The notes below the pieces were generated by a model. The model saw only the letters and a program-made list of their open reading frames with translations. It was not told the DNA's origin and made no database searches. This document shows positions 7,651-44,605 of a stretch of 53,142 nt of DNA, piece by piece. The DNA comes from an uncultured Clostridium sp. GTDB taxonomy: Bacteria; Bacillota; Clostridia; Lachnospirales; Lachnospiraceae. Position 1 is the stretch's first letter. Each line of letters opens with the position of its first letter. The stretch is from contig CANRZB010000021.1 in NCBI GenBank assembly GCA_947644195.1, positions 1-53,142 on the forward strand, written 5' to 3'. The position numbers were made by a program, and so were the translations under genes.

Positions 7651-8028
7651 TCAGGAAACGGTCTGCTCTTCCATCACGACATAGGCCATCGCCAGTTCTT
7701 CCGTATCTGTCAAAGAAATATGCACCCTGCTAACGCCCAAACGCTCCGCCTGTTCCGCTGCCCGTCCCGATAAACAGACACAGGGAGCTCCGTCAGGCTC
7801 CCTTAATATTTCAATCTCCGAAGGCATAATCCCACAGAATCCGGTTCCCATCGCTTTGACAACAGCCTCTTTTCCGGCAAATGCAGTAGCCGCACGGGAT
7901 GATTTTTGCTGGATCAATTCTCGTTCCCGCTCAGTAAAATATTTACGCTGAAATGCTTCCCTGGCATATGCCTGGCAAACCCTACGGATCTCTACCAGAT
8001 CCGTTCCTATCCCAACAATTTTGCTCAT
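7651..8028 (-). CDS. acpS: Holo-[acyl-carrier-protein] synthase
   Basis: AcpS transfers 4'-phosphopantetheine from CoA to the serine of acyl carrier proteins. The 125-aa product starts MSKIVGIGTDLVEIRRV, with the magnesium-binding Asp in GTDLVEI, and has the FAGKEAVVKAMGTG motif. ATG 8028 follows AAGGATG by five bases; the longer frame to 8079 has no supporting site. It could modify the acyl carrier protein encoded at 14239-14478 as well as the fatty-acid one. Confidence 0.95.
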   Translation of the reverse strand: MSKIVGIGTDLVEIRRVCQAYAREAFQRKYFTERERELIQQKSSRAATAFAGKEAVVKAMGTGFCGIMPSEIEILREPDGAPCVCLSGRAAEQAERLGVSRVHISLTDTEELAMAYVVMEEQTVS

Positions 8029-8114
8029 AATTTCATCCTTACCATCCTGACACATCGAACGATCTTTCCTTCGTTTCACTTAGCGAATTTACGAGCTTAG
8101 CGAAACTTCAATGC

Positions 8115-10402: not shown

Positions 10403-10444
10403 AATATGAGTTACTATTCCCAACTAGGAATAGTAACTCATATT
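10403..10444 (-). terminator. Perfect 18-bp hairpin ending the LuxC operon
   Basis: An 18-base arm at 10403-10420 is the exact reverse complement of 10427-10444, with a six-base loop (CAACTA). On the minus strand the stem lies 22 bases after the luxC stop and is followed by TTGTTATAATATTT, only moderately T-rich. I read it as the terminator of the nine-gene operon; the perfect symmetry means it could act in either direction. Confidence 0.6.
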
Positions 10445-10466: not shown

Positions 10467-11717
10467 CTATATATTTACCGAGATATTTCTCGTCATCTCA
10501 TTCATCAGATTATAGCCGTCCCAATCCAATTCGAAATCCAGCGTTTTTCCTACCGGAACTACCCGGTCGATTCCTCCCGGACAGCTCTCCCGAATAAAGT
10601 GTTCCATCGTTTCCTTCGGTACGTTCAATGCCGCAACGGTCTGTAGTTTGGTAACGCAGACTGGCAAAATGTCCCGGAGATCATTGGTTTGGTATTCAAA
10701 AAACAAACCGCTGTTATGTTTCACTTCCAAAAGAGTCGCTTCCACCCGATCAATCTGAACCCGGTTAATTCGATTCTCCTGGTCATACTCCAGATAACGA
10801 GGGTTAACACCTTCTCCACAAACAGCCGCATATTGCAGGGCAGCATCTAATTTATCAATGACCTGCACCGCTCCCAGGCTGTATTTCTGCGTAACCAGTT
10901 TCGATAATTCTCCCCAGAAAATTTCCTGCGCTTCGGCGACTTTTTCTCCCATCCAGACCAGTAATTTCGGACTGGTACATGCATTCTGGTCATTCAGATA
11001 CGTATCGTTATAAAAACCATTTGCCGCTTCCGCATATTGATTCTGTTCCAGATAACGGTCTGCATCAATGATACAGATGGAATAGCGATCTGCAAAGCAG
11101 ATCTCCTTTGTCCTCGGACCGATCGGAGATTCCCGCAAAGTGGCAACCGTCTGGTCTCCCCCCCAGATAATCCTTACATCACATAATGCTGAAAAAAAAT
11201 CGTTAATTTTTTTATCCCTGCCATACTGCACAAGCAGAATATAGGGAGCTAGATTAGGAAATTCCTGTATCGTTTCCTGTAACGCATCCACGATGATGTC
11301 CACCTGGTCAAAATGCTTCGACGGAAGCCGTACAATATTTTTATTCCCGGCAAACAGAGATGCCAGCATTGAATAGGCAAAATTGACCGCTACATTGGAA
11401 GGTGCAATATGGAACGCAATTCCACGGCCCAGGCGCAATCCCTCCACGGCATACTTCTTTTTCATAGATTCCACAGATGCCCGACGACACCAGAACCCTA
11501 ACGTCACAATATCCGGGAATACATTGGCCCCTTTGACATGCAGCAATTTCTTGGAAAAGGAGTCCAGAAACGCTACCACATGTTCCGCAAATGGAATCTG
11601 TGCAGGAACCGTATCCATCTTCGTCAGCAAATCAAAATCCCCGACACGGAATGTTACCTTTTTCTGAATATATTCACATTCCGCTTCCCCGCTAAAATTT
11701 TTGAGCATAGGTATCAC
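10467..11717 (-). CDS. luxC: LuxC-type acyl reductase
   Basis: The 416-aa product belongs to the LuxC acyl-CoA/acyl-protein reductase family (PF05893), which reduces an activated acyl group to an aldehyde with NADPH in an aldehyde-dehydrogenase fold. Visible are HIAPSNVAVNF (103-113) and GGDQTV (186-191) in the nucleotide-binding part and the active-site cysteine C247 in NDQNACTSPK. GTG 11717 has AAGGGGG four bases upstream and overlaps the end of the luxE gene by 26 bases, indicating translational coupling. There is no luciferase (luxAB) nearby, so the role is aldehyde formation for biosynthesis, not bioluminescence. Confidence 0.88.
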   Translation of the reverse strand: MIPMLKNFSGEAECEYIQKKVTFRVGDFDLLTKMDTVPAQIPFAEHVVAFLDSFSKKLLHVKGANVFPDIVTLGFWCRRASVESMKKKYAVEGLRLGRGIAFHIAPSNVAVNFAYSMLASLFAGNKNIVRLPSKHFDQVDIIVDALQETIQEFPNLAPYILLVQYGRDKKINDFFSALCDVRIIWGGDQTVATLRESPIGPRTKEICFADRYSICIIDADRYLEQNQYAEAANGFYNDTYLNDQNACTSPKLLVWMGEKVAEAQEIFWGELSKLVTQKYSLGAVQVIDKLDAALQYAAVCGEGVNPRYLEYDQENRINRVQIDRVEATLLEVKHNSGLFFEYQTNDLRDILPVCVTKLQTVAALNVPKETMEHFIRESCPGGIDRVVPVGKTLDFELDWDGYNLMNEMTRNISVNI

Positions 11718-12786
11718 TGCACCCCCTTATCTCTGCATTTTTCAATCGTCCTATGATCTTGAAATATTTTCCCTTCCTGCCACACGGACAATCATCCTCA
11801 CCTAAGAGGATTCCTTCGTCTTCGGTAAGCAGAGAATGGCCCGGATAGGATTCCGGCAGAGTAGAAACCACCTGGATCACTCCTTTTTCTCCCACCGCAC
11901 AAGGCTGTAAGGTCGTTTCATTCCTCATAATCACATCCGAAAAAATACTGGTATGGAGATGCCCCTCCTCACACTGCATATACACGCATCCTGTCTGTTC
12001 TACCATGCCATAGTAATCGTGTACGTCATACAGACCGCATACTTCTGTCAGCGCATCCCGGAAAGCATCCGCAGAAACCGCCTCGGAAACCAGCTTTTTC
12101 CATCCGCCTCCATGAATTAATATGCCTTTAGACAAATCAAAGGTAGTACCATCCGTCTCTTTTAATTTTTTCAACGCCTTATAGAAATGCTGCCAGATCA
12201 TAAACGTAAATCCAAACAACAGAATTTTCTCCCCGGCATGTTTCTCCAGAAACTCCTCCAATGCCGCCACATTTATATTCATATCATCATCCAGGACATA
12301 GGTCTTGTCCGTACCGAACATGGAAAATCCCAGAATACCTGCTCCCCTGGCAGAAAACATCAGACGGTTTTTTACCACCGAAGGGCAGTCGATGATTAAC
12401 ATCGGAAGACGGTTGGAACCGGTAAACTCCGATACAATTTTTACCAACGTCTTTTGCTGGTAACTGGCGGTGGCACGGTTCAGATAGATCTTGGAAACCG
12501 CCTGGCCTGTCGTACCGGACGAAGTCATTGTCTTAAAGATCTCCTCCTTCGGCACGCTCTGTAGATCCAATTCCTTAAACAGTCGCACCGGCAAAAATGG
12601 GATCTCATCGTATTCCTGAATTTCCTCTGGATCTTTCCCCAGGCAATCTAACATTATGTGATAATATTCACAATGTTTTGCATGATGTCTGGTTAGAGCA
12701 AGCAGGCGGTCATTCAAAAATTTCCTCTTTTCCTGCTTATCCAGCGAATAGGGTGCAATTTCTAATAACTCACTAAAATCTTTCAT
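11692..12786 (-). CDS. luxE: LuxE-type acyl-protein synthetase
   Basis: A 364-aa member of the LuxE acyl-protein synthetase family (PF04443, ANL superfamily). LuxE activates a carboxylate as acyl-AMP and carries it as a thioester for reduction by LuxC. The P-loop-like TSSGTTGQAVS is at 88-98 and YGMVEQTG, the adenylation motif, near 269-276. Near the C-terminus are CPCGRKGKYFKIIGR and a lone Cys356, positioned like the acyl-carrying cysteine near the end of Vibrio LuxE. Start ATG 12786 follows AAAGGAAG. It sits 16 bases after the AMP ligase and overlaps luxC. Confidence 0.87.
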   Translation of the reverse strand: MKDFSELLEIAPYSLDKQEKRKFLNDRLLALTRHHAKHCEYYHIMLDCLGKDPEEIQEYDEIPFLPVRLFKELDLQSVPKEEIFKTMTSSGTTGQAVSKIYLNRATASYQQKTLVKIVSEFTGSNRLPMLIIDCPSVVKNRLMFSARGAGILGFSMFGTDKTYVLDDDMNINVAALEEFLEKHAGEKILLFGFTFMIWQHFYKALKKLKETDGTTFDLSKGILIHGGGWKKLVSEAVSADAFRDALTEVCGLYDVHDYYGMVEQTGCVYMQCEEGHLHTSIFSDVIMRNETTLQPCAVGEKGVIQVVSTLPESYPGHSLLTEDEGILLGEDDCPCGRKGKYFKIIGRLKNAEIRGCSDTYAQKF

Positions 12787-12802
12787 AGGACGCTTCCTTT
12801 AA

Positions 12803-14221
12803 CTAATCGTAGTTTTCTAATGCTGCATATTGGGTTTTTCCGGAATCGTTCTTTGGAATTTCCGAAATCACTTTTACCTGAAATGCCACCGGATTCAGCC
12901 CAGTAATTTCAGCGATATACTCCCTGGCCTGCTTGCTGATCTCCTCCTTCGTGACATAGATACACATATGGTCGTCTGTCCCCACACAGGCACAGTCCAT
13001 ATAATCAAATTTCGCCTTGAGCAGACGTTCCACCTCGTCCAGATTGACCCGGTTGCCGTACACCTTCAGAAACCGTTTCTTCCTTCCAACGATATAATAG
13101 TAGCCGTCCTCATCCCGCTGCGCCATATCGCCGGTTTCCAGACGTCCGTGCCGCTCATCCCCTTTGGCAAGGTCTTCCCCACATTCTGCATAACCAAGCG
13201 TGACATTCGGCCCCTCATACACCAGTTCCCCGGTTACCTTCGGTTCTTCCACCACGTTTCCGTCGGCGTCAATCAGGGTAAAAGATCCGCCCGGAATGGC
13301 AATTCCCATACTTCCGTATTTTTCTAGTGATTTTTCATAGGGAAGATAGGACATTCTGGCAGTCGCCTCGCACTGCCCATACATCACGACAAAGCGTTTC
13401 CCCTGTTCCTGCGCATAAGTTGCAAATTTTTTATGCAGTTCCGGCGAGAGCTTACCACCCGCCTGTGTCATCGTGCGCAGGGAAGGCAGATCCATGCGGA
13501 AAAAGCGCAGCTTATCTAAGATCTCATAGTTATAAGGAACACCGCCAAACGAAGTCGCTTCCTCTTCCCGGAAGAACCCCCAGAACTCTTTCTGCATCAG
13601 ACTCTTATCCGTCAACAAAATCGTAGCGCCCACCAGAATATGACTGTTGATGATCGACAGGCCATAGGTATAATTCATCGGCAGCGTCGTAATCGGCCGC
13701 TCCGTCTGATCCAGTTCCAGATACTTTGCAATCGACTCCGCATTTGCCGCGATATTGGTATAACTCTGGCGAACCAGCTTCGGACTTCCCGTACTGCCCG
13801 ATGTTGTCAGAAGCAACGCCAGGTCATCATGGAGCGGATAGCTCCTAGCAAAATCCGTTTTTACCACCGAATACCCATAACCGGAAGTCACCTCCGCAAA
13901 ATCGCCATATTTCTGAGAGTCCGCAGAATCCAGCCACAAGAACTGCGGCTGATAGATGGACAAAAGATTTTCAACTAATTCCACATCAATCTTGCCATTT
14001 AACAGAACCGGCACTATCCCACCACGGAGACATGCCAGATAAGACATGACAGAACCGATCACATTATTGGTAAATAAGAACACCAGGCTTCTCTTTGGTA
14101 TGACCTGCAAAATTTCGTCTGCATACTGCGTCAGATCACGGTATTTCACAGACTGACCGTCGTCGGACCGCAACATGATATGATCCGCATACCGTTCCTG
14201 TTCCTCATAAAAAGCTGCCAT
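12803..14221 (-). CDS. AMP-dependent acyl/aminoacyl ligase
   Basis: A 472-aa ANL-family adenylating enzyme. Motifs: TSGSTGSPK at 140-148, YGQCEAT at 281-287, TGD at 364-366, the hinge GRKKRFLKVYGNRVN at 379-393 and the catalytic C-terminal lysine K462 in PKNDSGKTQY. The compact size and the adjacent acyl carrier protein (17 bases upstream) suggest it loads a carboxylic or amino acid onto that carrier, as DltA or stand-alone adenylation enzymes do. Substrate cannot be read from the sequence. GGGAG precedes ATG 14221. Confidence 0.88.
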   Translation of the reverse strand: MAAFYEEQERYADHIMLRSDDGQSVKYRDLTQYADEILQVIPKRSLVFLFTNNVIGSVMSYLACLRGGIVPVLLNGKIDVELVENLLSIYQPQFLWLDSADSQKYGDFAEVTSGYGYSVVKTDFARSYPLHDDLALLLTTSGSTGSPKLVRQSYTNIAANAESIAKYLELDQTERPITTLPMNYTYGLSIINSHILVGATILLTDKSLMQKEFWGFFREEEATSFGGVPYNYEILDKLRFFRMDLPSLRTMTQAGGKLSPELHKKFATYAQEQGKRFVVMYGQCEATARMSYLPYEKSLEKYGSMGIAIPGGSFTLIDADGNVVEEPKVTGELVYEGPNVTLGYAECGEDLAKGDERHGRLETGDMAQRDEDGYYYIVGRKKRFLKVYGNRVNLDEVERLLKAKFDYMDCACVGTDDHMCIYVTKEEISKQAREYIAEITGLNPVAFQVKVISEIPKNDSGKTQYAALENYD

Positions 14222-14238
14222 ACTAGTCTCCCATCCTT

Positions 14239-14478
14239 TTATTCAAAACTGATATCATATTTGCCCAGGATCTCTTTTCCTTTCTCAAAAGAACTCAGGT
14301 CAATGATATCATCCGTATCCATCATAATTCCAAACGCATCTTCAATGGCAGCGACCAAGGTCATATGGCCGACGGAATCCCATGCCGGAATTGCCTGATA
14401 TTCTAATCCTTCCACCTGATCCGGTGTGATTTCCAAAGTTTCTGTAAATGCGTTCGTGTACTTTTCTAAATTTGTCAT
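14239..14478 (-). CDS. Acyl carrier protein (79 aa)
   Basis: A small acidic four-helix carrier with the phosphopantetheine attachment serine S35 in AWDSVGHMTL, followed by the typical second helix (AIEDAFGIMMDTDDI). ATG 14478 follows GGAGGAG by three to four bases; the longer frame to 14568 runs into the tktC 3' end and lacks a site. DSVGH instead of the fatty-acid DSLD/E marks a specialised carrier like those working with stand-alone adenylation enzymes. It lies between the split transketolase and the ligase that probably charges it. Confidence 0.9.
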   Translation of the reverse strand: MTNLEKYTNAFTETLEITPDQVEGLEYQAIPAWDSVGHMTLVAAIEDAFGIMMDTDDIIDLSSFEKGKEILGKYDISFE

Positions 14479-14570
14479 TTTTCTCCTCCATCCACTTTTT
14501 CTTTTTCCACGACAGAAAAAATCATCTTCGACCCTGTCTATCGCATGCAAAAACCGGCGCATCAGCAAAA

Positions 14571-15560
14571 TTACAATCCAATGCCCCGAATTCTATTACT
14601 TATATTATGGGCAATCTGTTCGCTTGTCAAGCCGTATTTCTCCAAAATATACTCATAGGAACCGGCATGGGTAAACTCATCTGGAACGCCAAGCATCATC
14701 TGCGGCGCCCTGCCACCGATCCCTGCCATATGCTCTGCCACAGCGCTTCCCAGCCCACCCCGGATGGAATGTTCCTCCACGGTAACGACCAGTTTTGCCT
14801 GAAATGCCTCTTCTACCATCCTGGTATCTAACGGTTTGATCGTATGCATATCAATGACCTGACACTCGATTCCCTGCTCTGCCAGAATCTCAGCCGCTTT
14901 CAGAGAACGATCCACCATGGTTCCAGTCGCAATGACCGCCACATCCCCGCCCTCACGCAGTCGGATTGCCTTTCCAATCTCATAGTCATAGGCTTCCTGG
15001 TAGACAATCGGATTATTCATTGTCCCTGTCAGGCGCAGATAGACCGGACCCGGGTAGGCTGCGGCCGCCTTTACTGCATAATAGGTTTCCGTACAGTCTG
15101 CCGGAGAGAGCACCACCAGATTCGGAATACTTCTGGCGATCGCCAGATCTTCAATACAAGTATGCGTAGCGCCCAAAACACTGACAGAAAATCCCGAAGT
15201 CAGCCCGACCAGTTTGATCGGTAATTTCATATATCCCATATTGACCCGAACCTGGTCTAACGCCCTGGTTACGGCAAAAGATGCATAGGTGGTGGCAAAG
15301 GTGGTAAATCCCTCTTTTGCCAATCCTGCTGCCACCCCGACCAAATTTTGTTCCGCGATCCCGACATTATATAACCGCTCTGGATATTTTTCCCGAAATC
15401 GGTCCAAACCGGAATAAAAACATAGATCCGCTGTCACGATAGACAAACTGTCATCCATCTCCGGCAGCTCCATCGCCGCCATGCCAAATGCTCCACAGGA
15501 ACCCAGTCTGGACATCACACGGATGGTTGCAGATTTCAATTCTTTTCCTTGTGTACTCAT
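14571..15560 (-). CDS. Transketolase-like C-terminal subunit
   Basis: Split transketolases consist of an N-terminal ThDP-pyrophosphate-binding half and a C-terminal half with the pyrimidine-binding and C domains; this is the latter (329 aa). The ThDP-activating glutamate is E70 in VGIAEQNLVG; SGFSVSVLGATHTCIEDLA and the C-domain VVTVEEHSIRGGLGSAV follow. Start ATG 15560 carries the shared leader AAGGAGGCTCGCAG. A 111-base gap separates it from the N-terminal subunit, the widest gap in the operon, and contains that repeated leader. It should form an alpha2beta2 enzyme with the upstream product and transfer a two-carbon ketol unit. Confidence 0.9.
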   Translation of the reverse strand: MSTQGKELKSATIRVMSRLGSCGAFGMAAMELPEMDDSLSIVTADLCFYSGLDRFREKYPERLYNVGIAEQNLVGVAAGLAKEGFTTFATTYASFAVTRALDQVRVNMGYMKLPIKLVGLTSGFSVSVLGATHTCIEDLAIARSIPNLVVLSPADCTETYYAVKAAAAYPGPVYLRLTGTMNNPIVYQEAYDYEIGKAIRLREGGDVAVIATGTMVDRSLKAAEILAEQGIECQVIDMHTIKPLDTRMVEEAFQAKLVVTVEEHSIRGGLGSAVAEHMAGIGGRAPQMMLGVPDEFTHAGSYEYILEKYGLTSEQIAHNISNRIRGIGL

Positions 15561-15586
15561 ACTGCGAGCCTCCTTTCCTGCAATCC
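15553..15586 (-). repeat. Shared 34-nt translation-initiation leader, copy 1
   Basis: On the minus strand: GGATTG, five variable bases, AAGGAGGCTCGCAG, T, ATGAGTAC, the last eight bases being the start of the transketolase C gene. The same arrangement with identical spacing occurs before the GT2 gene (19018-19051) and prfC (31608-31641). Similarity to the GT2 copy extends further upstream: TGCAAGCA lies exactly 15 bases before GGATTG in both. Confidence 0.8.
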
Positions 15587-15671
15587 GAACGCTTGCCGGA
15601 CTGCTTGCAATCTATCTTCCAATAAGCCGGAGTGCGTCTTCGTCCCACTTCGGTCCGCACTAACTGACTTC

Positions 15672-16493
15672 TCAATCTGCCACTTCCTGGACTGCCTGCT
15701 CATATTGCTTTGTATTCAAGGCACCGTTATGCCATAATGGATTCCCCTCCATAAAGGAAACTCCTTTTCCCTTTACCGTATTCGCAATCACAACATAAGG
15801 CCGATCACTGTTCTCCGTCAAGGCGGTATATAGCGCCTCCACATCATGGCCGTCTACAGATGCCGTTTTCCAGCCAAAACTCTTCCACTTATCTTCGAAC
15901 GGTGCCAGGGATAAAATCTGATCGGTCTGTCCGTCATATTGCAGCTGATTCTGATCTACAATTACCACCAGATTATCTAAGCCGTAATGGCTGGCAGACG
16001 CTGCCGCCTCCCAGATCGATCCCTCATCACATTCACCATCTCCAACGATCACATAGACTTTGGAAGTTTCATTTCCCTTTCTCTTTAATCCGAGGCACAT
16101 CCCGACCCCCTGGGATAACCCGTGTCCCAGACTGCCGCTGGAAAACTCAATGCCCAGGGATTCATTCATCGCAGGATGTGCGGAAAGTGGACTGTCATCC
16201 TGTTTGTAGGTCGCCAGGTCTTCTTTCGACAGAATCCCGGCCTCTGCCATAGCGGTATACAGCGCCAGCGTACCGTGTCCCTTACTAAAAATCAAACGGT
16301 CCCGTTGTTCTGCTCCCATATCCTTCCGATCATAGCGCAACACGCCCAAATACAGCACAGACATGATCTCCGCCATAGAGAGCCCACCGCCAATATGCGC
16401 CCCGGTATTTCCCAGATGATGCGTCATTTCAACCATTTCCTGTCGCATCGTCCGGGCTGCCGCCTCCATTCTGCTCCTTAATTCCTCGTTCAT
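15672..16493 (-). CDS. Transketolase-like N-terminal subunit
   Basis: A 273-aa ThDP-binding half-transketolase. The ThDP motif GDGECDEGSIWEA begins at 151 and its paired asparagine follows near 182 (VDQNQLQ); SKGHGTLALYTAM (70-82) and the HGLSQGVGMCLG helix are typical. ATG 16493 shares one base with the TAA of the SDR gene (TAATG), so the two are coupled. Together with the product of 14571-15560 it should make a complete two-subunit transketolase. Primary-metabolism transketolase is usually a single chain, and this pair's place in a biosynthetic operon argues for a dedicated ketol-transfer reaction. Confidence 0.9.
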   Translation of the reverse strand: MNEELRSRMEAAARTMRQEMVEMTHHLGNTGAHIGGGLSMAEIMSVLYLGVLRYDRKDMGAEQRDRLIFSKGHGTLALYTAMAEAGILSKEDLATYKQDDSPLSAHPAMNESLGIEFSSGSLGHGLSQGVGMCLGLKRKGNETSKVYVIVGDGECDEGSIWEAAASASHYGLDNLVVIVDQNQLQYDGQTDQILSLAPFEDKWKSFGWKTASVDGHDVEALYTALTENSDRPYVVIANTVKGKGVSFMEGNPLWHNGALNTKQYEQAVQEVAD

Positions 16494-17245
16494 TACATCC
16501 CTCCATCCACTCTTAAAACCTGGCCTGTGACAAAAGAAGACTGCTCGGATGCCAGATACAGGACTGCATCTGCTATTTCCTCCGGTCTCGCCAAACGCTG
16601 AAATGCCGTCTGCCTTACCATAGCCTCCCCTGCCTTTTCCTCCATCAGTTTCGCCATCGCCGTATCCGTCAATCCGGGTGCCACCGCATTGACACGGATA
16701 TTCCCGGCGGCCAGTTCCTTCGCTGCGGTTCTGGTCAGTGCAATGACTGCCGCTTTAGAGGTGCCATAGGCACAATTTCCGGCATCCAGCTCCAACCCGG
16801 AAATGGACGCCAGATTGACAATGGATCCACCCCCGGAACGGCCCATCATCCGGGAAACCAGCTGCATCATCTGTACCACGGAAAAATAATTGACATCAAA
16901 GACCGCGCGGATCTCCTTTAAAGAGGTCATCTGTAACAGTCCTCCATGCGCAACGCCCGCATTGTTGACTAAAATATCTATTTTTACCTTCTCCTTTACC
17001 AAACCGGACACCGCCTGTTTCACGGCTTCCTCATCGGTCAGATCAAAGTAAATCCCAGTCACGGCAACACCGTATTTCTGTTCCATCTCCTGCGCAAAAA
17101 CCGAAAATTCTTCCCGTTCCTTTCTCAGATGCGCATAGATCTGACATCCCTCCTGGCAGAACCGCTCAATAATTTTCCTGCCGATTCCACCATTCGCACC
17201 GGTTACCAGGGCAGTCTTGCCTTGTAATACCATATCATTTCTCAT
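16493..17245 (-). CDS. Short-chain dehydrogenase/reductase (FabG-like)
   Basis: A 250-aa classical SDR. NAD(P)-binding TGANGGIG at 15-22, NNAG at 94-97, catalytic Ser near 147-149, Tyr160 and Lys164 in YGTSK, and the C-terminal VTGQVLRVDGGM are all present. ATG 17245 follows AAGGGTG by five bases; the in-frame ATG at 17296 lacks a site. In the operon it probably reduces a keto group, for example the ketone left by the transketolase. Simple fatty-acid FabG function is less likely given the company. Confidence 0.9.
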   Translation of the reverse strand: MRNDMVLQGKTALVTGANGGIGRKIIERFCQEGCQIYAHLRKEREEFSVFAQEMEQKYGVAVTGIYFDLTDEEAVKQAVSGLVKEKVKIDILVNNAGVAHGGLLQMTSLKEIRAVFDVNYFSVVQMMQLVSRMMGRSGGGSIVNLASISGLELDAGNCAYGTSKAAVIALTRTAAKELAAGNIRVNAVAPGLTDTAMAKLMEEKAGEAMVRQTAFQRLARPEEIADAVLYLASEQSSFVTGQVLRVDGGM

Positions 17246-17277
17246 ATTTACACCCTTCCAAACATGCCAAGCCCCAA

Positions 17278-17298
17278 CAGTGAAGCTCCGCTTCACTG
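17278..17298 (-). other. Intra-operon hairpin between GNAT and SDR genes
   Basis: CAGTGAAGC and GCTTCACTG form a perfect nine-base stem with a three-base loop. A second small stem (CACAAA/TTTGTG) lies just before it on the minus strand. There is no T-tract after it, so it is not an obvious terminator; it may modulate mRNA stability or the level of the downstream genes. Confidence 0.4.
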
Positions 17299-17338
17299 TG
17301 GCACAAACTTTTTGTGAAAAACATCACTAGCCAATCGG

Positions 17339-18064
17339 CTATTGATGTTTGATTAAGATATAATTCATATCCGTGATCCCATAGCCATACTGCATATGAA
17401 GACGCAGTATCGGCAGGTTATTGGACGAAACTCGTGTTACAATCCTGGTGCCGCCCTGCTGCCGGATGGATTCCATATTCGCATACAATGCCAAAAAACC
17501 TAATCCCTTATTCGCCGACTCCGTAAATACACCGCCCAGAAACGCATCGTACACCGTTCCCTCGCTGCGCAGATTAATTCCAAATGCCACCGGCTGTTCT
17601 TTATAATAAGAAATGACCGCCTCTGCACCCCGGTCCAATTCATCTCTGGTCCAGTTTGCATACCGCCTTCCGGCAATCTGCTTTGAAAAATGAGGATCCC
17701 TGGCGATGCGGTCCGTTTCAAAAATATCACCGGCTTCCATTTCCTGCAAAATCTTATCTAAAGCTTCTCCTTCCGCCCTGCGTACCTCAATCAACGGCTC
17801 AAACCGCTGATAGAGCCGGGGCAGTTCCATAGTGCTGACTTTCCCATCAAGGGAAACCGCCGTCTCCACAAAACAATATCCTACAGATTGTGACGCCATC
17901 AGAAGCTCCGTAGATCCGCTGGGGATCTTTAATACACTATATGGCATCCGAATCTCGGAAAGCTGTTCCTGAAGCTCATTAGCTGTCTCGGTGCCATCAC
18001 ACACAATCTCCTGCACCTCTACGCCAAGATTTCTTTTTTCCCAAACTGCATCAATGACTCTCAT
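17339..18064 (-). CDS. GNAT-family acyltransferase (241 aa)
   Basis: The C-terminal half (about 120-241) has the GNAT fold: FGINLRSEGTVYDAFLGGVF, the acyl-CoA pyrophosphate region SANKGLGFLALYANMESIRQQG, and the closing LPILRLHMQYGYGITDMNYIL. The N-terminal half resembles the extension of sugar-nucleotide acetyltransferases of the WecD type. The ATG at 18064 overlaps the GT2 gene by 14 bases, so it is coupled. It may acylate an amino group of the sugar or of the product made by the operon; the donor could be CoA or the local carrier protein. Confidence 0.78.
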   Translation of the reverse strand: MRVIDAVWEKRNLGVEVQEIVCDGTETANELQEQLSEIRMPYSVLKIPSGSTELLMASQSVGYCFVETAVSLDGKVSTMELPRLYQRFEPLIEVRRAEGEALDKILQEMEAGDIFETDRIARDPHFSKQIAGRRYANWTRDELDRGAEAVISYYKEQPVAFGINLRSEGTVYDAFLGGVFTESANKGLGFLALYANMESIRQQGGTRIVTRVSSNNLPILRLHMQYGYGITDMNYILIKHQ

Positions 18065-19025
18065 CTGTCTCCTCCCCCTTCCGGGAATCTTTGGTACGTT
18101 CTTTAATGATAAACTGTGGAGATCGGTTCAGACTGATATACATTCTGCCGATATATTCTCCCAACATTCCCATCATGCACATCATCACACCGCTGACCAA
18201 GAGAAGTACGGAGATCATCGAACTCCAGCCCACCGGTACCGAAGGAGTGATAATTTTATGGATCACGGTATAGATTAAAAACAGGAACGCAAAAAAGGAA
18301 GTGGCAATGCCAAGTACCGTAGAAATCCGTAATGGGACAATGGAAAATGCGGTAAATCCATTTAACCACAATCCCAGCAGTTTTCTCATCGTGTACCCGG
18401 ATTCTCCTTCCAGGCGCTCCTTATGTTCCACCTCCACATTGGCAATGTTTCTGGTGGTACGTAATATTAATCCTAAAATATAGGGATATGGATTCGGATA
18501 TTTCAGAATTTCGTCAATCACATAACGTCGGGCGATATAAAAACTGGATACGGATAAATCCTTCGGCTTCCCCATGAACAGGGATGCCATTTTATCATTC
18601 ACACGGCTTCCGAAATTACGGAAAAAGGAATGTTTCTTGTTGCCGTATTTTGCATATACGACATCGTACCCTTCCTGATACTTTTCGATCAATTTCCCGA
18701 TCTCACTCGGAGGAGTCTGTCCATCATCATCCAGGCAGATCACAAGGTCTCCCGAACAGTTTGCAAATCCCGCCATTAATGCACCCTGCTGCCCGAAATT
18801 TATGGACAGATTAAATCCATACACGTTCTCATGCTCTTCTGCCAGCATACGAATCGTCTGATAGGTAAGGTCTGGGGAACAGTCGTTGACGAGCAGAATT
18901 TCAAAGGTATATTGATTCCGAAATTCCTCCATTGCTGTATAAATGTCTTCTACCACTGGTTTTATCGTATGTTCCGAACAATAGCAGGGAATTACGAATG
19001 AGATTTTATCCATCCTTGTACTCAT
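18051..19025 (-). CDS. GT2 glycosyltransferase, polyprenyl-phosphate type
   Basis: A 324-aa inverting GT-A enzyme of the DPM1/ArnC group that transfers a sugar from a nucleotide donor to polyprenyl phosphate. It begins ISFVIPCYCSEHTI, has the metal-binding LVICLDDDGQTPP near residue 93, and ends with two membrane helices (STVLGIATSFFAFLFLIYTVI and SVLLLVSGVMMCMMGML) before the GEYIGRMYI tail. The real start is ATG 19025 within the shared leader GGAAGGAGGCCCGCAG; the 24-residue in-frame extension is leader sequence. It is the first gene of the nine-gene operon and links the pathway to a cell-surface glycan or glycolipid. Confidence 0.88.
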   Translation of the reverse strand: MSTRMDKISFVIPCYCSEHTIKPVVEDIYTAMEEFRNQYTFEILLVNDCSPDLTYQTIRMLAEEHENVYGFNLSINFGQQGALMAGFANCSGDLVICLDDDGQTPPSEIGKLIEKYQEGYDVVYAKYGNKKHSFFRNFGSRVNDKMASLFMGKPKDLSVSSFYIARRYVIDEILKYPNPYPYILGLILRTTRNIANVEVEHKERLEGESGYTMRKLLGLWLNGFTAFSIVPLRISTVLGIATSFFAFLFLIYTVIHKIITPSVPVGWSSMISVLLLVSGVMMCMMGMLGEYIGRMYISLNRSPQFIIKERTKDSRKGEETDESH

Positions 19026-19051
19026 GCTGCGGGCCTCCTTCCGCACAATCC
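19018..19051 (-). repeat. Shared 34-nt translation-initiation leader, copy 2
   Basis: On the minus strand: GGATTG, five variable bases, AAGGAGGCCCGCAG, C, ATGAGTAC. It matches copy 1 at 28 of 34 positions by my count, and the upstream similarity (TGCAAGCA at the same distance, and ATTGGAAG further out) suggests a longer duplicated segment. Confidence 0.8.
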
Positions 19052-19156
19052 TATCGTCCTGTAGATTGCTTGCAGCTAACCATGCCAATACTTCCAATCA
19101 ATCTGCATATAGTATTCCCCTATCCAAATCCTATATACAAAGTTACCCAACAACTG

Positions 19157-19185
19157 ATTATAAGCGTTCGTCCTATGTTTTGCAA
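19157..19185 (-). promoter_or_regulatory. Promoter of the nine-gene LuxC/LuxE operon
   Basis: Minus-strand TTGCAA (19180-19185) and TATAAT (19157-19162) are 17 bases apart. Transcription would start near 19150, giving a leader of about 125 bases to the GT2 start codon. The promoter lies against the breakpoint of the decayed chemoreceptor gene. Confidence 0.7.
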
Positions 19186-31573: not shown

Positions 31574-31602
31574 TTGAAACTATCCTTCTTTTCCCCTATA
31601 AT
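31574..31602 (+). promoter_or_regulatory. prfC promoter
   Basis: TTGAAA (31574-31579) and TATAAT (31597-31602) with a 17-base spacer. Transcription would begin at about 31608-31610, so the mRNA leader is essentially the shared 26-base sequence before the ATG. Confidence 0.75.
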
Positions 31603-31607
31603 GATAG

Positions 31608-31641
31608 GGATTGTAAAAAAGGAGGCTCGCAGCATGAGTAC
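31608..31641 (+). repeat. Shared 34-nt translation-initiation leader, copy 3
   Basis: GGATTG, five bases (TAAAA), AAGGAGGCTCGCAG, C, ATGAGTAC. It matches copy 1 at 30 of 34 positions by my count with no length change. Unlike copies 1 and 2, the similarity does not continue upstream, because the prfC promoter lies there. Confidence 0.8.
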
Positions 31642-33238
31642 GAAATCAGGACAATATCAAGATGAAATTAAAAAGCGAAGAACATTTGCCATTATTTCCC
31701 ATCCCGACGCCGGCAAGACCACATTAACCGAAAAGTTTCTGCTCTACGGTGGCGCCATCAACACAGCCGGTTCCGTGAAGGGCAAAGCAAATTCTAAATA
31801 TGCTGTATCCGATTGGATGGAAATAGAAAAAGAACGTGGTATTTCCGTCACATCCTCGGTACTTCAGTTCCATTACCATGACTTTTGCATCAATATCCTG
31901 GATACCCCAGGGCACCAGGACTTTTCCGAAGATACCTACCGCACGTTAATGGCAGCGGATTCTGCCGTCATGGTAATCGACGCTTCCAAAGGTGTCGAAG
32001 CGCAGACCATCAAATTATTTAAAGTCTGTGTGATGCGCCATATCCCCATCTTTACTTTTATCAACAAAATGGATCGGGAAGCCAGAGATTCCTTTGAGTT
32101 GTTAGATGATATTGAATCCGTACTCGGCATCCGCACCTGTCCGATGAACTGGCCGATTGGCTCTGGAAAACGCTTCAAAGGCATTTATGACCGACGCGCC
32201 AAAACGGTACGATCTTTTGAGGCAGTTGCTACAGGCGGCGCCAAGGCAGCTTCAGAAACGGATTACAATCTGGAAGACCCTGCTCTGAGAGAGTTGGCGA
32301 CCGAGGAACTCTACGATCAATTAGTGGATGAAATCGAACTGTTGGACGGCGCAAGCGATCCACTAGATCTGGAAAAGGTACAAAAAGGAGAATTATCTCC
32401 GGTATTTTTTGGATCTGCATTAACCACGTTTGGGGTTGAAACCTTTCTGAAATATTTCCTGGAAATGACTTCTTCCCCCCTGCCCCGCATGTCCAATGAG
32501 GGAGAAATTGATCCGGTGGAACATGATTTCTCCGCCTTTGTCTTCAAGATTCAGGCTAATATGAATAAAGCGCACCGCGACCGCATCGCTTTCCTGCGGA
32601 TCTGTTCTGGCAAATTTGACGCAGACCGGGAAGTATACCATGTGCAGAGCGGACGCAGACTGCGTCTATCCCAACCGCAGCAAATTATGGCGCAGGAGAG
32701 ACAAGTCATCTCCGAAGCCTATGCCGGGGATGTGATTGGTGTCTTTGATCCTGGTATGTTCTCCATTGGTGACACGATTACGGTTCCAGGCAATAAATTT
32801 GAATATGAAGGAATCCCGACATTTGCCCCGGAACATTTCGCCCGTGTCGTACAGTTAAACTCCATGAAACGGAAACAATTCGTCAAGGGAATCACTCAGA
32901 TTGCCCAGGAAGGGGCGATTCAGATTTTCCAAGAATATTCTGCTGGAATGTCAGAAATTATTGTGGGTGTTGTCGGAGTTCTGCAATTTGATGTACTGAA
33001 ATACCGACTTGAAAATGAATATGGCTGTGAGATCCGCCTGGAAAGCCTGCCATATGGCTTCATCCGCTGGGTCGGCGACCCTTCGACCGACGTTACAAAA
33101 CTGAAACGTATGAACAATGTCAAAGCCGTCAAGGATATGAAAGAAAATCCTTTGCTGCTCTTTGTCAATGACTGGATGATCCGCATGGTATTAGAGGACA
33201 ATGAAGGATTAGAACTGTTGGAATTCAAGAAAAATTAA
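31634..33238 (+). CDS. prfC: Peptide chain release factor 3
   Basis: RF3 is the GTPase that recycles RF1/RF2 from the ribosome after peptide release. The 534-aa protein has the P-loop SHPDAGKT at 22-29, DTPGHQDFSEDTYR for switch II and INKMDRE for the guanine-specificity loop, then domains II and III with the RF3-type C-terminus. ATG 31634 follows AAGGAGG; an in-frame extension to 31574 coincides with the -35 hexamer and is not translated. It is the only plus-strand gene between 22.1 and 39.6 kb. Confidence 0.95.
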   Translation: MSTKSGQYQDEIKKRRTFAIISHPDAGKTTLTEKFLLYGGAINTAGSVKGKANSKYAVSDWMEIEKERGISVTSSVLQFHYHDFCINILDTPGHQDFSEDTYRTLMAADSAVMVIDASKGVEAQTIKLFKVCVMRHIPIFTFINKMDREARDSFELLDDIESVLGIRTCPMNWPIGSGKRFKGIYDRRAKTVRSFEAVATGGAKAASETDYNLEDPALRELATEELYDQLVDEIELLDGASDPLDLEKVQKGELSPVFFGSALTTFGVETFLKYFLEMTSSPLPRMSNEGEIDPVEHDFSAFVFKIQANMNKAHRDRIAFLRICSGKFDADREVYHVQSGRRLRLSQPQQIMAQERQVISEAYAGDVIGVFDPGMFSIGDTITVPGNKFEYEGIPTFAPEHFARVVQLNSMKRKQFVKGITQIAQEGAIQIFQEYSAGMSEIIVGVVGVLQFDVLKYRLENEYGCEIRLESLPYGFIRWVGDPSTDVTKLKRMNNVKAVKDMKENPLLLFVNDWMIRMVLEDNEGLELLEFKKN

Positions 33239-40132: not shown

Positions 40133-40161
40133 AATACAAAGACCACTAAGCTTTTTGTATT
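40133..40161 (-). terminator. Terminator overlapping the stop of the repeat-protein gene
   Basis: AATACAAA (40133-40140) pairs with TTTGTATT (40154-40161). On the minus strand the stem spans the stop codon and is followed by TTCTCTATTTT. Confidence 0.5.
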
Positions 40162-43100
40162 CTGATATGACGAAGCTGACTCTTCTTTAACAAACGAAGG
40201 TATTTTTTCTGATATTTGGCTGGCATAGAAAATCGAATGATCCCATTCTTCTCTGCAAACGCATTTTTCTGAATCTTCTGAATCTTTCCCCCTTGCAATA
40301 CTACGGTTCTTAGTTTTTTACATGGATAAAATGCCTGTTTTCCAATGCGTTGTATTCGTTTTCCCACCTTAACATGCTTTAACACTTTACAGCGGTAAAA
40401 TGCTTTCTTATGAATTTCTACCACAGAATACCGTGTTCCCTTCCAGGTAACCGATGAAGGAATCCGAATACGTTTTGCTCTGCCATCCGCTGCAATTACC
40501 TTTACTGTTTTTTTAGCGGAAGATAATACTTGATAGGTCAATGCTCCTCGGGAAAATTTCTTCTTTTTATTGTTTGCAGCACTCCCTTTCACAGTACCAA
40601 TCGGTATTCGTTTCTGTGTTACAACAGATGATGCGCCCATACCGTTTCCACTTCCCGTTAAATTCAATGGATTTTCTTGAACATCCTGTAAACTTGGCTT
40701 ACTTGGGTTATCCGGCATAGAACTTTCCCCGGAACCATCGGGGATTTTGTCTGGATCCTTGAGAGCTGGATCGGATTGACCCGGATCTACCTTGGAATCA
40801 TCTTTAGGATTTTCTGAAGTTGGCTCCGGTCCATCTGGCTTCTGATTTCCCGGATTGGGTGTTTCCTCTGCTTCTGATTTCTTCCGAAGCAGTATCCGGT
40901 ATGTCTTATCTCCATAAGCATCCTTGGGAATAGACTTCCCTATTGTTTTATGTTCGTCTCCACTTTCATACCAGCCAATCCATTCATATCCCTGTATCCA
41001 TAGCTGCGCAGCCGTCGGTAATATAACCTGTTCTCCATACTGGTACTGTCTGACAGGTTCCTCCAGGAAAAATATATCCGCATAATTCCCCAAATCATAT
41101 TGGATCTGATAGGTAATTTTTTTCTCCGTCCATTTAGCAAATAAATTCCGATTTTCTGTAATATATATGATATCTCCGGCATTTCCAGCAAAATCACGGC
41201 AAGATTCATCCCAATACCAGCCGCTGAAATAATATTCTTTTTCTATTGGCTTTTCTAACACCAGTGGCATATCATGAGAACGATAACTGACCTGGAAATC
41301 CTTTCCCATCCGATAGGTAACCGCATGCTGCATCATAAAACAGGAATCCTCCTGCACAGTGATGTTTTCTCCTGGCTGATATACATTCCCTTGGGAGTCT
41401 TGATAACGTTCTACAGCCACTCCCTGTACATGATCCGGAAACTGATAGGTATCTTCATGCATCATTTCATGCATAGCATAGCAGGTACTGGCTTGATCCG
41501 AAGCATCCCGCACAATACGCACCGTATGTTTCTTCCGTTTCAGACATACCGTGATCACTGTCTGTCCATCGGCAGCAACAACCTGTTGCTCTAACTCCTG
41601 GGGATTCGTTACCGTAAATCCTTTTACAAAATCCTGGAGCATCCCCTCCCATCCTTTGTTTTGATAATGCGCCATAACCGCTTCGGAAATAGGCTGATCT
41701 GTCTCTCCTTCCATCACTAGCATTTCCCGTTTCGTATCCTGCCCATCCAAGGACGGTTTCTCTAATAGCAGATAGAACTTCGTATCTTTTCTTGGATGCC
41801 AGACAGCATAGAGATTTTGTAGCCCTGCTTTCTCTATCTTCCGATCCATTCTTTCCCTGTCACAATAGGATTCTCCTGATCCATCCGCATGGGTGTTCCA
41901 TCCTGCGAAATCATAACCCGGCAGCTCGAAAGCACAGGCTTGCAACTTCCAAGGATCCCCATAGCGATATCTTGTATTACGCATACTTCCTTTTCCGGTG
42001 GATGAGCTGGTTACAGGAAAATTACAATGATACTGTATTTCCCCTTCCACCGGCCTCCACATGGCATAGAGAGTAACTACAGACTCCTGCTCCTGTTGCA
42101 ATGTCGCTATCTGCTGCCCTACAGTATAGTTGGTTCCCGTTCCATCTGCCGAAGAATTCCATCCTGTAAATTCATATCCTCTCCTGTTCCACTGACAGGC
42201 AGGAATGGTTACTTCGGTCTCATAATAGGCCGTCAATGCAGACATCTTCCCCTGTACGGGATCAGCATCCTGCTCGGGTACATTCCCATCAAAGCAGATC
42301 TCATAGGAATCAGGCTGCCAGACAGCATAGAGTGTTTGATTATGATTGGGGATACGATAGGTATCGCCCGCTTTACAATAGACCTGGGTACTCTCTGGAT
42401 CTGCTGTCCATCCTGCAAAGTGATATCCTTTCCGCTCCGGTTTTTCTTCTGGAATCTGCACCGTCTGTTCAAAAATCCCCTGTAATACCGGAAATTCTGC
42501 CTGACCCAATAAATCATCGAATTGAATCTGATAAGAATTCCTACGATAATATGCCATCAGAACCAAACTGCCATCACCTTGTACCGTCCCCTCCAAGGTG
42601 GAAGATCCCGGATCCAGATAATATCCTTGGTAAACCGGCAATGTCCCCTCAAGGGAAATAGAACTTCCGGTATAATTTTGAAAATGATACTGTGTGGCCA
42701 TTTGAAAACTTCCATCCAACTCTTCCTTGTAATACTCCACATGGTAATTGACGGTATCCGGTTTCCAAACTGCATATAATGTAGTATCCTCCTGTAGTCT
42801 GAATTCCGTATTACCAGAAACCGCCTTCGGATCTTCTGACCAACCGGCAAAAACATATCCCATGCGCTTCGGGACGTTTTGAAGCATGATATCTGCTGGA
42901 TTCCACACGGCATATAATCTTTTCGTTCCACCAATAGAGGATAGATTTCGCACGCTTTCCTGGTCCGAATAACGCCCCCCTCCAGAGCAGCTCTCTGCCC
43001 ATCCGCTCCATCGCAGCGCAACCTTTTTCTCCTGCATATCGCATACCGCATCCTCTGCCTGCAGATCAAATTTTAATTGTATTTCTCTGCGATATCCATT

Positions 43101-44465: not shown

Positions 44466-44605
44466 ATTGACCTCCATTCCACCATTTTCCATCCATCTGA
44501 TTCAGAGTTAAAAATGGCATTGGACAAACTCAGGCCCCGGACTTCTGTCTCATTCCCCATCGTCTGTCCAATGTGATTAATACCATTGTCCCATCCTGTT
44601 CTCAC
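44462..44605 (-). CDS. Possible small leader peptide coupled to the repeat-protein gene
   Basis: A 47-codon frame starting GTG 44605 ends with a TGA that overlaps the ATG of the 1439-aa protein as ATGA; an earlier GTG at 44632 would give 56 codons. The predicted peptide contains GWDNGINHIGQTMG and SDGWKMVEWRSI. A GGGAGG site lies well upstream of the first GTG option but spacing is poor. The ATGA overlap suggests coupling, yet coding is unproven; it may be chance within a structured leader. Confidence 0.25.
   Translation of the reverse strand: MRTGWDNGINHIGQTMGNETEVRGLSLSNAIFNSESDGWKMVEWRSI

Follow-up and report, generated by a model that had tools for sequence, protein, structure and literature searches.

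A LuxE/LuxC operon with a dedicated split transketolase in a Lachnospiraceae genome: a candidate cassette for glycan decoration

A close described relative of the operon analysed here is found in the flagellar loci of Dickeya, where a core of such genes has been printed together with two transketolase genes (PMC7575072, PMC4522980, PMC6206727). Our operon lies on a contig of an uncultured Clostridium sp. of the Lachnospiraceae (GenBank assembly GCA_947644195.1, contig CANRZB010000021.1, positions 1 to 53,142); this whole 53,142-nucleotide stretch is called the window below. Its nine genes are read on the minus strand from 19025 to 10467 in the order family 2 glycosyltransferase (GT2), GNAT acyltransferase, short-chain dehydrogenase/reductase (SDR), transketolase N-terminal chain (TK-N), transketolase C-terminal chain (TK-C), acyl carrier protein (ACP), AMP-forming ligase, LuxE and LuxC. 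An earlier reading of the window made from the letters alone (the sequence-only reading) had described these genes, their order and their common strand, and open reading frames (ORFs), Pfam and NCBIfam models and a structure model bore it out. In the available passages on Dickeya the genes are labelled as fatty-acid or sugar biosynthesis and no pathway is proposed; in one passage a link to flagellar biogenesis is considered unlikely. The Dickeya cluster resembles the window in holding ACP, SDR, tktA, tktB, ligase, LuxE and LuxC together (PMC7575072, PMC4522980), but a hexapeptide transferase and VioA replace GNAT and WecE, the printed list contains no ArnC-like GT2, and the cluster adjoins fliC. 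A Kosakonia locus (L141) matches this Dickeya-type core by BLAST; comparison of E. coli genomes with the Kosakonia stretch gave no megablast match. We regard the Dickeya core as near-identical and already in print; what is new here is the apparent loss of the sugar-phosphate pocket from LuxE-linked transketolases.

Flagellin islands of Aeromonas group II and of Enterobacteriaceae share ACP, 3-oxoacyl-ACP reductase, AMP ligase, LuxE and LuxC with the window; their acceptors are pseudaminic acid or other sugars, a transketolase is not named in the portions of these papers that were searched, and a 'liposugar' has been suggested for the core genes (PMC7874193, PMC4875605). Vibrio cholerae O1 makes N-tetronyl perosamine by means of a five-gene tetronate set that includes the 471-aa, ligase-like WbeL (PMC3441752); as we propose for the window, a 4-amino-4,6-dideoxy sugar is there N-acylated with a small hydroxy acid. 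A search of mostly open-access literature for LuxE/LuxC with transketolase, ACP or surface glycans turned up papers on flagellar islands but none seen to describe a pathway covering the full set. The statement of the sequence-only reading that no pathway with the full set was described therefore stands for the pathway, at least in the passages seen, but not for the genes, since the core with two transketolase genes is in print for Dickeya. Besides WbeL, the V. cholerae set reportedly comprises genes for ACP, LuxC-like reductase, alcohol dehydrogenase and transferase; it is not known to include a transketolase.

The acceptor pocket of the split transketolase

Our preferred reading, to which we give a probability of about one half, is that the operon serves to decorate a glycan: its products would build an acyl or ketol group of extended chain length, which GNAT would put on a 4-amino-4,6-dideoxy sugar, and GT2 would load this sugar on polyprenyl phosphate. 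We infer the reactions, their order, the acid and the recipient as follows: (i) the ligase would charge the small ACP with a short acid, (ii) LuxE and LuxC would convert a carboxyl group to an aldehyde, (iii) the dedicated split transketolase, its ketol-holding half intact and its sugar-phosphate half apparently rebuilt, would add a two-carbon ketol to the non-phosphorylated aldehyde, (iv) the FabG-like SDR would reduce the resulting ketone, (v) the WecD-like GNAT would pass the chain-extended hydroxy group to the amino group of dTDP-4-amino-4,6-dideoxyhexose, itself the predicted product of a WecE encoded on contig C69 of the same genome and (vi) the ArnC-like GT2 would move the acylated sugar to polyprenyl phosphate, the sugar-lipid then being flipped out by an ArnE/F-like pair encoded beside WecE. 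Because the final acylation needs a carboxyl group, the starter would be a dicarboxylic acid or would stay bound to the ACP during the conversion of its distal end; tethering is favoured because the pocket of the window's transketolase clade has no basic residue for a free carboxylate.

TK-N matches PF00456 (136 bits), has a split transketolase as its best PDB match (6yak, E = 3e-67) and keeps the residues of the ketol and thiamine diphosphate (ThDP) side (E. coli H26, H66, H100, D155, N185 and H261) as well as the GDG...N motif. TK-C, whose best PDB match is 6yaj (E = 8.5e-66), reads C/Y/E/T/L/H/T at E. coli R358/S385/E411/H461/D469/H473/R520: E411 and H473 are retained, and C22, Y49, T121, L129 and T180 stand for R358, S385, H461, D469 and R520. 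The five replaced residues are those that we take to form the sugar-phosphate site of transketolase (EC 2.2.1.1). Judged by this alignment, the operon transketolase has lost its sugar-phosphate site with the catalytic Glu intact, and its pocket would fit a non-phosphorylated aldehyde, in keeping with the earlier proposal that it acts on an aldehyde.

The change is not peculiar to the window. Among 43 LuxE-linked C-chains, E411 is found in 43, H473 in 42, R358 in 26, S385 in 16, R520 in 1, and H461 and D469 in none; the alignment omits chains of 250 aa or less (e.g. a cut one in locus L111), and this tally omits L065 (transketolase ~6 kb from the core, R520 present) and includes L143 (8.4 kb from LuxE). 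The 27 other rows, two DXS-like or distant fused ones included, have H461 in 23, D469 in 24 and R520 in 24. Among the best 30 matches in 391 genomes of the class, 24 keep D469 and R520 (23 of those also H461), and the remaining six have altered pockets and are all LuxE-linked. In the tree, whose transketolase rows are labelled Bacillota, Pseudomonadota, Spirochaetota, Synergistota and Melainabacteria, 43 of 44 LuxE-linked rows share one branch with one odd row (support 89/91, branch not starred). The window's TK-C belongs to a 15-row clade (support 100/91) with C or S and then Y, F or H at the R358 and S385 positions. Three loci (L117, L131 and L147) have two transketolase pairs each, with C-chains of differing pocket types.

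The nearest precedent for such a pocket is the engineered E. coli transketolase S385Y/D469T/R520Q, whose acceptor range was moved away from phosphorylated aldehydes towards non-phosphorylated and aromatic ones (PMC5073344); at these three positions it has Y/T/Q and the window Y/L/T. Two-chain architecture is shared with the split transketolase of Carboxydothermus hydrogenoformans (6yaj, 6yak), although 6yaj retains Arg and His aligned with R358 and H461, and with Rif15, an example, in the available part of the source, of two-subunit transketolases able to transfer C2 units in specialised pathways (PMC6002545).

The same residues bear on the possibility that a housekeeping or salvage transketolase has come to lie in the operon by chance and that the Lux genes make a fatty aldehyde for a 'liposugar'. 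The labels of earlier authors, fatty-acid biosynthesis or liposugar (PMC4875605, PMC7874193, PMC7575072; passages only), would suit it. However, a second split transketolase with canonical residues (R A E H D H R) is encoded on contig C6 of the genome, so that the operon pair, with its diverged residues, is not the organism's sole transketolase, and both LuxE and LuxC lie far below the long-chain model cut-offs; we consider this explanation very improbable and have rejected it.

Two other loci hold transketolase chains apart from LuxE. One (L231 8582-9994, genome G356) has a shortened TK-C of 219 aa, 58% identical to ours, beside an SDR and with no LuxE in 20 kb; it is a possible remnant of a second cassette. 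The other (L233 8550-10320, genome G493 of the same genus) has a split pair without LuxE in what looks by eye like a polysaccharide locus; the seven positions of the C-chain (L197) are occupied by R P E N A H Y.

Core enzymes and recurrence of the gene set

Glycos_transf_2, adh_short_C2, Transketolase_N, Transket_pyr with Transketolase_C, AMP-binding, LuxE and LuxC were all above the Pfam cut-off in the operon. LuxE (PF04443, 211.3 bits) has C333, C335 and C356, invariant in 14 chosen sequences, and is 47–71% identical to 13 chosen relatives; LuxC (PF05893, 94.3 bits) has the Q.xC[STA][ST]P motif at 244 (QNACTSP), which is found in 91 of 97 LuxC rows. In the curated long-chain NCBIfam models they reach 76.9 bits against a cut-off of 550 (LuxE) and 39 bits against 750 (LuxC). 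The operon thus has these two families in common with the Lux fatty-acid reductase (LuxC, LuxD, LuxE) but differs from it in these scores and in its lack of a thioesterase: neither a LuxD-type thioesterase nor a luciferase was found among the nine operon proteins or 19 other window proteins scanned, the absence of luciferase having been claimed before. The ligase (PF00501, 148 bits; motifs TTSGSTGSPK, YGQCEA and TGD) is 51–65% identical to 12 chosen relatives. Its best solved relative, an oxalate-CoA ligase (E = 1.2e-26), was set aside as too distant to name the acid. The ACP scores just under the PP-binding cut-off (19.1 against 20.8 bits) and has a WDSVGH motif, likewise present in 76 of 78 ACP rows. 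The SDR (PF13561, 202.6 bits; TIGR01830, 217.9 bits against a cut-off of 297.75) has TGANGGIG, NNAG and YGTSK. Sequence motifs required for activity are preserved in the operon: the ThDP site of TK-N, YxxxK of the SDR, and those of ligase, LuxC and ACP. Ligase and LuxE stay similar across cassette variants, which suggests, without proving it, one starter common to them. In several loci, e.g. L067, L069, L118 and L122, LuxE and LuxC form one fused frame of ~770–790 aa; such fusions occur in 6 of the 68 stretches counted below.

The distribution of the gene set was analysed by scanning genome contigs with a LuxE alignment, which gave at least 564 relatives. The best 80 loci were taken, so close kin are over-represented; 79 were used (L136, on the same contig as L072, was removed, and L080 was retained although on the contig of L058), and counts were made over the 68 that span 12 kb or more. 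Family labels were verified by Pfam on one representative each, and the P-values for co-occurrence assume independence even between related loci. LuxC and ligase are present in all 68 stretches, ACP in 60, SDR in 48, a DegT aminotransferase in 33 and the transketolase pair in 32; thioesterase (19), NeuB (18), GNAT (14), an acetolactate-synthase-like enzyme (11) and GT2 (9) are rarer. Six of the 79 loci (L084, L089, L094, L097, L113 and L155) contain all nine families in their stretch, and two of these (L094 and L155) have the window's order with a thioesterase added before LuxE. Among 20 stretches, one from another family (L071) has all nine in identical order, its GNAT being read as two overlapping ORFs. 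The co-occurrence on which the sequence-only reading depended is therefore real, and a one-off arrangement is ruled out by this recurrence, which extends to scattered bacteria from gut and environment. An SDR accompanies the transketolase in 27 of 32 loci compared with 21 of 36 others (P = 0.032). LuxC is matched in 35 of 291 genomes of the class and in 23 of 200 of the family, closely (E < 1e-50) in 10 including our own. In the genus, 4 of 28 genomes have a strong LuxE, truncated in one case where the contig ends, which makes the cassette an accessory trait.

Proposed amino-sugar route and exchange of carbon-carbon enzymes

GNAT has no Pfam match, gave no match to the PDB by sequence and reaches 29.0 bits against a cut-off of 219 in the NCBIfam WecD model PRK10975, below equivalog level. 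Its structure model (pLDDT 93.9) nevertheless has the WecD fold, with 2fs5_A as the best PDB match (E = 3.5e-14, TM 0.72/0.78). GT2 (PF00535, 90 bits) has ArnC as its best solved relative (9hwj, E = 1.7e-43), as expected for the polyprenyl GT2 claimed earlier, and stays under the NCBIfam cut-offs for PgfS (177.4 against 500) and ArnC-type PRK10714 (174.4 against 529). WecE is absent from the window and present in the genome at C69:5892-7013 (633.4 bits; cut-off 434.85), directly followed by two small EamA-like proteins 48–57% identical to pairs in L084, L089 and L113. These features recall the Arn (L-Ara4N) and enterobacterial common antigen (Fuc4NAc) pathways, from which the locus differs in that GNAT, GT2 and the EamA-like pair are all under curated family cut-offs. 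In the 68 stretches, GT2 with 35% identity or more is always accompanied by GNAT (9/9), and the nine stretches with WecE (at least 55% identity to our genome's) have GNAT in 9/9 against 5/59 of the others (P = 4e-8) and GT2, with no identity cut, in 8/9 against 6/59 (P = 3e-6). A WecD-like GNAT together with WecE would mean N-acylation of a 4-amino-4,6-dideoxy sugar, for which the carrier-bound group may be delivered as the acyl, and a GT2 nearest ArnC that travels with both points to a dTDP-amino sugar.

GNAT is found in 7 of 299 family genomes, strongly in 5. Of the other four strong ones, G640 has the full set in one stretch (L265: WecE, GNAT, SDR, both transketolase chains, ACP, ligase, LuxE, LuxC, GT2 and the EamA-like pair; its GNAT is identical to that of L084, and the two may be one genome), G098 has a different LuxE-LuxC ~10 kb away, and G185 and G112 have a WecE-GNAT-GT2-EamA module without LuxE. 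Along the GNAT tree, 4 switches between kinds of cassette were counted, compared with 7.8 in shuffles, several forks being weak. Since the module is found without LuxE, the lipid-linked amino-sugar module appears autonomous and the Lux-transketolase cassette an add-on. Six flagellin-domain matches are present on contigs C7, C30, C34 and C47, which makes flagellin a possible glycan target.

The sequence-only reading had a chain-extended hydroxyketone or polyol, or a sugar bearing it, attached to a surface lipid or glycan. A rival of this kind has LuxE and LuxC release a free aldehyde, from which transketolase and SDR make a hydroxyketone or polyol that is nucleotide-activated and loaded by GT2 as a sugar-like unit, GNAT merely acetylating. 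The neutral, hydrophobic pocket of the window's clade (C/S, Y/F, T, L) would fit a free uncharged aldehyde, and the WecE-GNAT-GT2 modules of L267 and L268 do without the cassette; but the operon has no nucleotidyltransferase for such a unit, and the company and kinship of GT2 point to a dTDP-amino sugar. We consider this rival unlikely. The observation underlying the sequence-only reading is confirmed and its interpretation supported in part: the polyprenyl-linked route is retained, and we now take the recipient to be a 4-amino-4,6-dideoxy sugar, N-acylated and polyprenyl-linked, so that the carrier-bound group may arrive as an acyl and not as a free hydroxyketone.

Several points weigh against the cassette as we propose it. 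The transketolase pair co-occurs with GNAT at chance level (8/32 against 6/36, P = 0.55) and is not associated with GT2 (P = 0.29), which implies a variable recipient, perhaps not of the WecD type; WecE-GNAT-GT2-EamA modules with no LuxE cassette within 18–20 kb (L267, L268) indicate that GNAT does not need one. WecE lies on another contig than the operon and is not linked to it, the EamA-like pair scores 27.4 and 30.1 bits against an ArnE cut-off of 92, one member fitting MdtJ slightly better, and a GT-C protein found in L113 and near some loci had no match in our genome in a search without positive control. R520 is alignment-sensitive (in a smaller alignment it is absent even from the housekeeping row), and an Arg lies near its position in 6 of the 43 LuxE-linked rows. 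The presence of two adenylating enzymes, ligase and LuxE, also speaks against it. Finally, a locus of the same genus (L250) has, between SDR and ligase, an acetaldehyde dehydrogenase and a hydroxy-oxovalerate aldolase, both above cut-off, instead of a transketolase, and the place of LuxC in the reaction order there is ambiguous.

This last locus belongs to a wider pattern of exchange. The transketolase pair never occurs with the acetolactate-synthase-like enzyme (0/32 against 11/36, P = 0.0005) and rarely with NeuB (2/32 against 16/36, P = 0.0003). It is possible, if slightly against the odds, that a constant ACP-ligase-LuxE-LuxC core makes a carrier-linked aldehyde which interchangeable carbon-carbon enzymes extend, giving varied hydroxylated groups on surface glycans in at least five phyla. 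The extending enzymes would be phosphate-blind split transketolases of several pocket types, NeuB with the acetolactate-synthase-like ThDP enzyme, and the hydroxy-oxovalerate aldolase. Such a system may explain masses left unassigned in Aeromonas piscicola AH-3, whose island carries the core and whose flagellin bears unidentified units of 102 Da and 376.14 Da (PMC7874193, in the part available); the computed masses are 102.032 Da for C4H6O3 and 376.148 Da for Pse5Ac7Ac plus C2H4O2, a match by mass only.

The core also stands without any scored carbon-carbon enzyme in 17 of 68 stretches; ACP, SDR, ligase, LuxE and LuxC are found alone in Deinococcus, and in Ponticoccus with LuxC on the opposite strand. 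These loci favour a tetronate-type acyl cassette, in which one end of an activated acid is converted to an aldehyde and by the SDR to an alcohol, an amino sugar receives the resulting hydroxy acid and the transketolase acts elsewhere or upstream; N-tetronyl perosamine of V. cholerae O1, with its five-gene set including WbeL, offers a model (PMC3441752, seen in part). On the other hand, the transketolase chains stand directly before ACP and ligase in the window and in 15 of 79 loci, and the pocket of LuxE-linked transketolases is consistently altered, which makes this alternative quite unlikely.

Further variants were noted. On a Rhizobium anhuiense plasmid (L249 5200-14982) a transketolase pair, ACP, ligase, DegT, LuxE, LuxC and SDR adjoin a TonB siderophore receptor gene and further biosynthetic genes. 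L061, L062, L064, L066 and L070 have a more remote version of the ACP-ligase-LuxE-LuxC set in the vicinity of an HpaB-family protein, with a CoA-transferase beside it in all but L064, perhaps in C4-acid fermentation. A link to 4-hydroxybutyrate metabolism, which would suggest a C4 acid, was set aside: the HpaB-family protein is under cut-off and only a putative 4-hydroxybutyryl-CoA dehydratase.

Layout of the operon and implications

The features are listed in Table 1. Genes overlap at three junctions (GT2/GNAT by 14 b, SDR/TK-N by 1 b, LuxE/LuxC by 26 b), the gaps between ACP and ligase and between ligase and LuxE are 16–17 b, and those at GNAT/SDR, TK-N/TK-C and TK-C/ACP are 92–111 b, so the tight, overlapping spacing described earlier holds only in part. 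The single promoter is not borne out: 20 sites were found, among them the one at 19185-19157 (10 of 12), where shuffles give 19.0. The terminal hairpin is real (-27.6 kcal/mol, z = -6.35), without a clean T-run.

Table 1. Features of the operon and its borders (window coordinates)
Feature	Position	Strand	Remarks
GT2, ArnC/GtrB-like polyprenyl-phosphate glycosyltransferase, 324 aa	18051..19025	-	ATG 19025; ORF opens upstream at TTG 19097
GNAT N-acyltransferase, WecD-like, 241 aa	17339..18064	-	WecD fold, weak WecD model match
SDR, FabG-like, 250 aa	16493..17245	-	PF13561, TIGR01830
Split transketolase N-terminal (ThDP) chain, 273 aa	15672..16493	-	PF00456
Split transketolase C-terminal chain, 329 aa, acceptor pocket apparently rebuilt	14571..15560	-	PF02779, PF02780
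ACP, 79 aa	14239..14478	-	weak PP-binding match, WDSVGH
AMP-forming acid:ACP or acid:CoA ligase, 472 aa	12803..14221	-	PF00501
LuxE-family acyl-protein synthetase, 364 aa	11692..12786	-	PF04443
LuxC-family acyl reductase, 416 aa, GTG start	10467..11717	-	PF05893
Terminal inverted repeat, possible terminator	10403..10444		two perfect 18-nt arms
Sigma-70-like site upstream of GT2	19157..19185	-	not distinguishable from chance

The flanking proteins scanned are mostly housekeeping (IF-2, NusA, TruB, LepA, GroEL, IMPDH). Two genes past the operon end, the frame at 7651-8079 (-) looks by eye like a holo-ACP synthase, which would be required to activate the ACP. TK-C, GT2 and an RF3-like gene at 31574 are preceded by near-identical leaders, at 15552-15575 (-), 19017-19040 (-) and 31619-31642 (+), that include ribosome-binding site and start codon; the genome has 7 copies with at most 2 mismatches compared with 0 for the reversed control, and its 3 exact copies are all on the window's contig. 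The protein encoded at 40146-44492 (-) is 1448 aa long and contains both Listeria-Bacteroides repeats and leucine-rich repeats of the BspA type.

If the proposal is true, the 'fatty-acid biosynthesis' genes of glycan and flagellin islands would build small hydroxylated chains by aldehyde-ketol chemistry, and glycan masses now unexplained would become testable. A naturally evolved transketolase would then do what engineers made the E. coli enzyme do, providing ready enzymes for biocatalysis, and the LuxE type together with the altered transketolase pocket would be a signature for finding such glycans.

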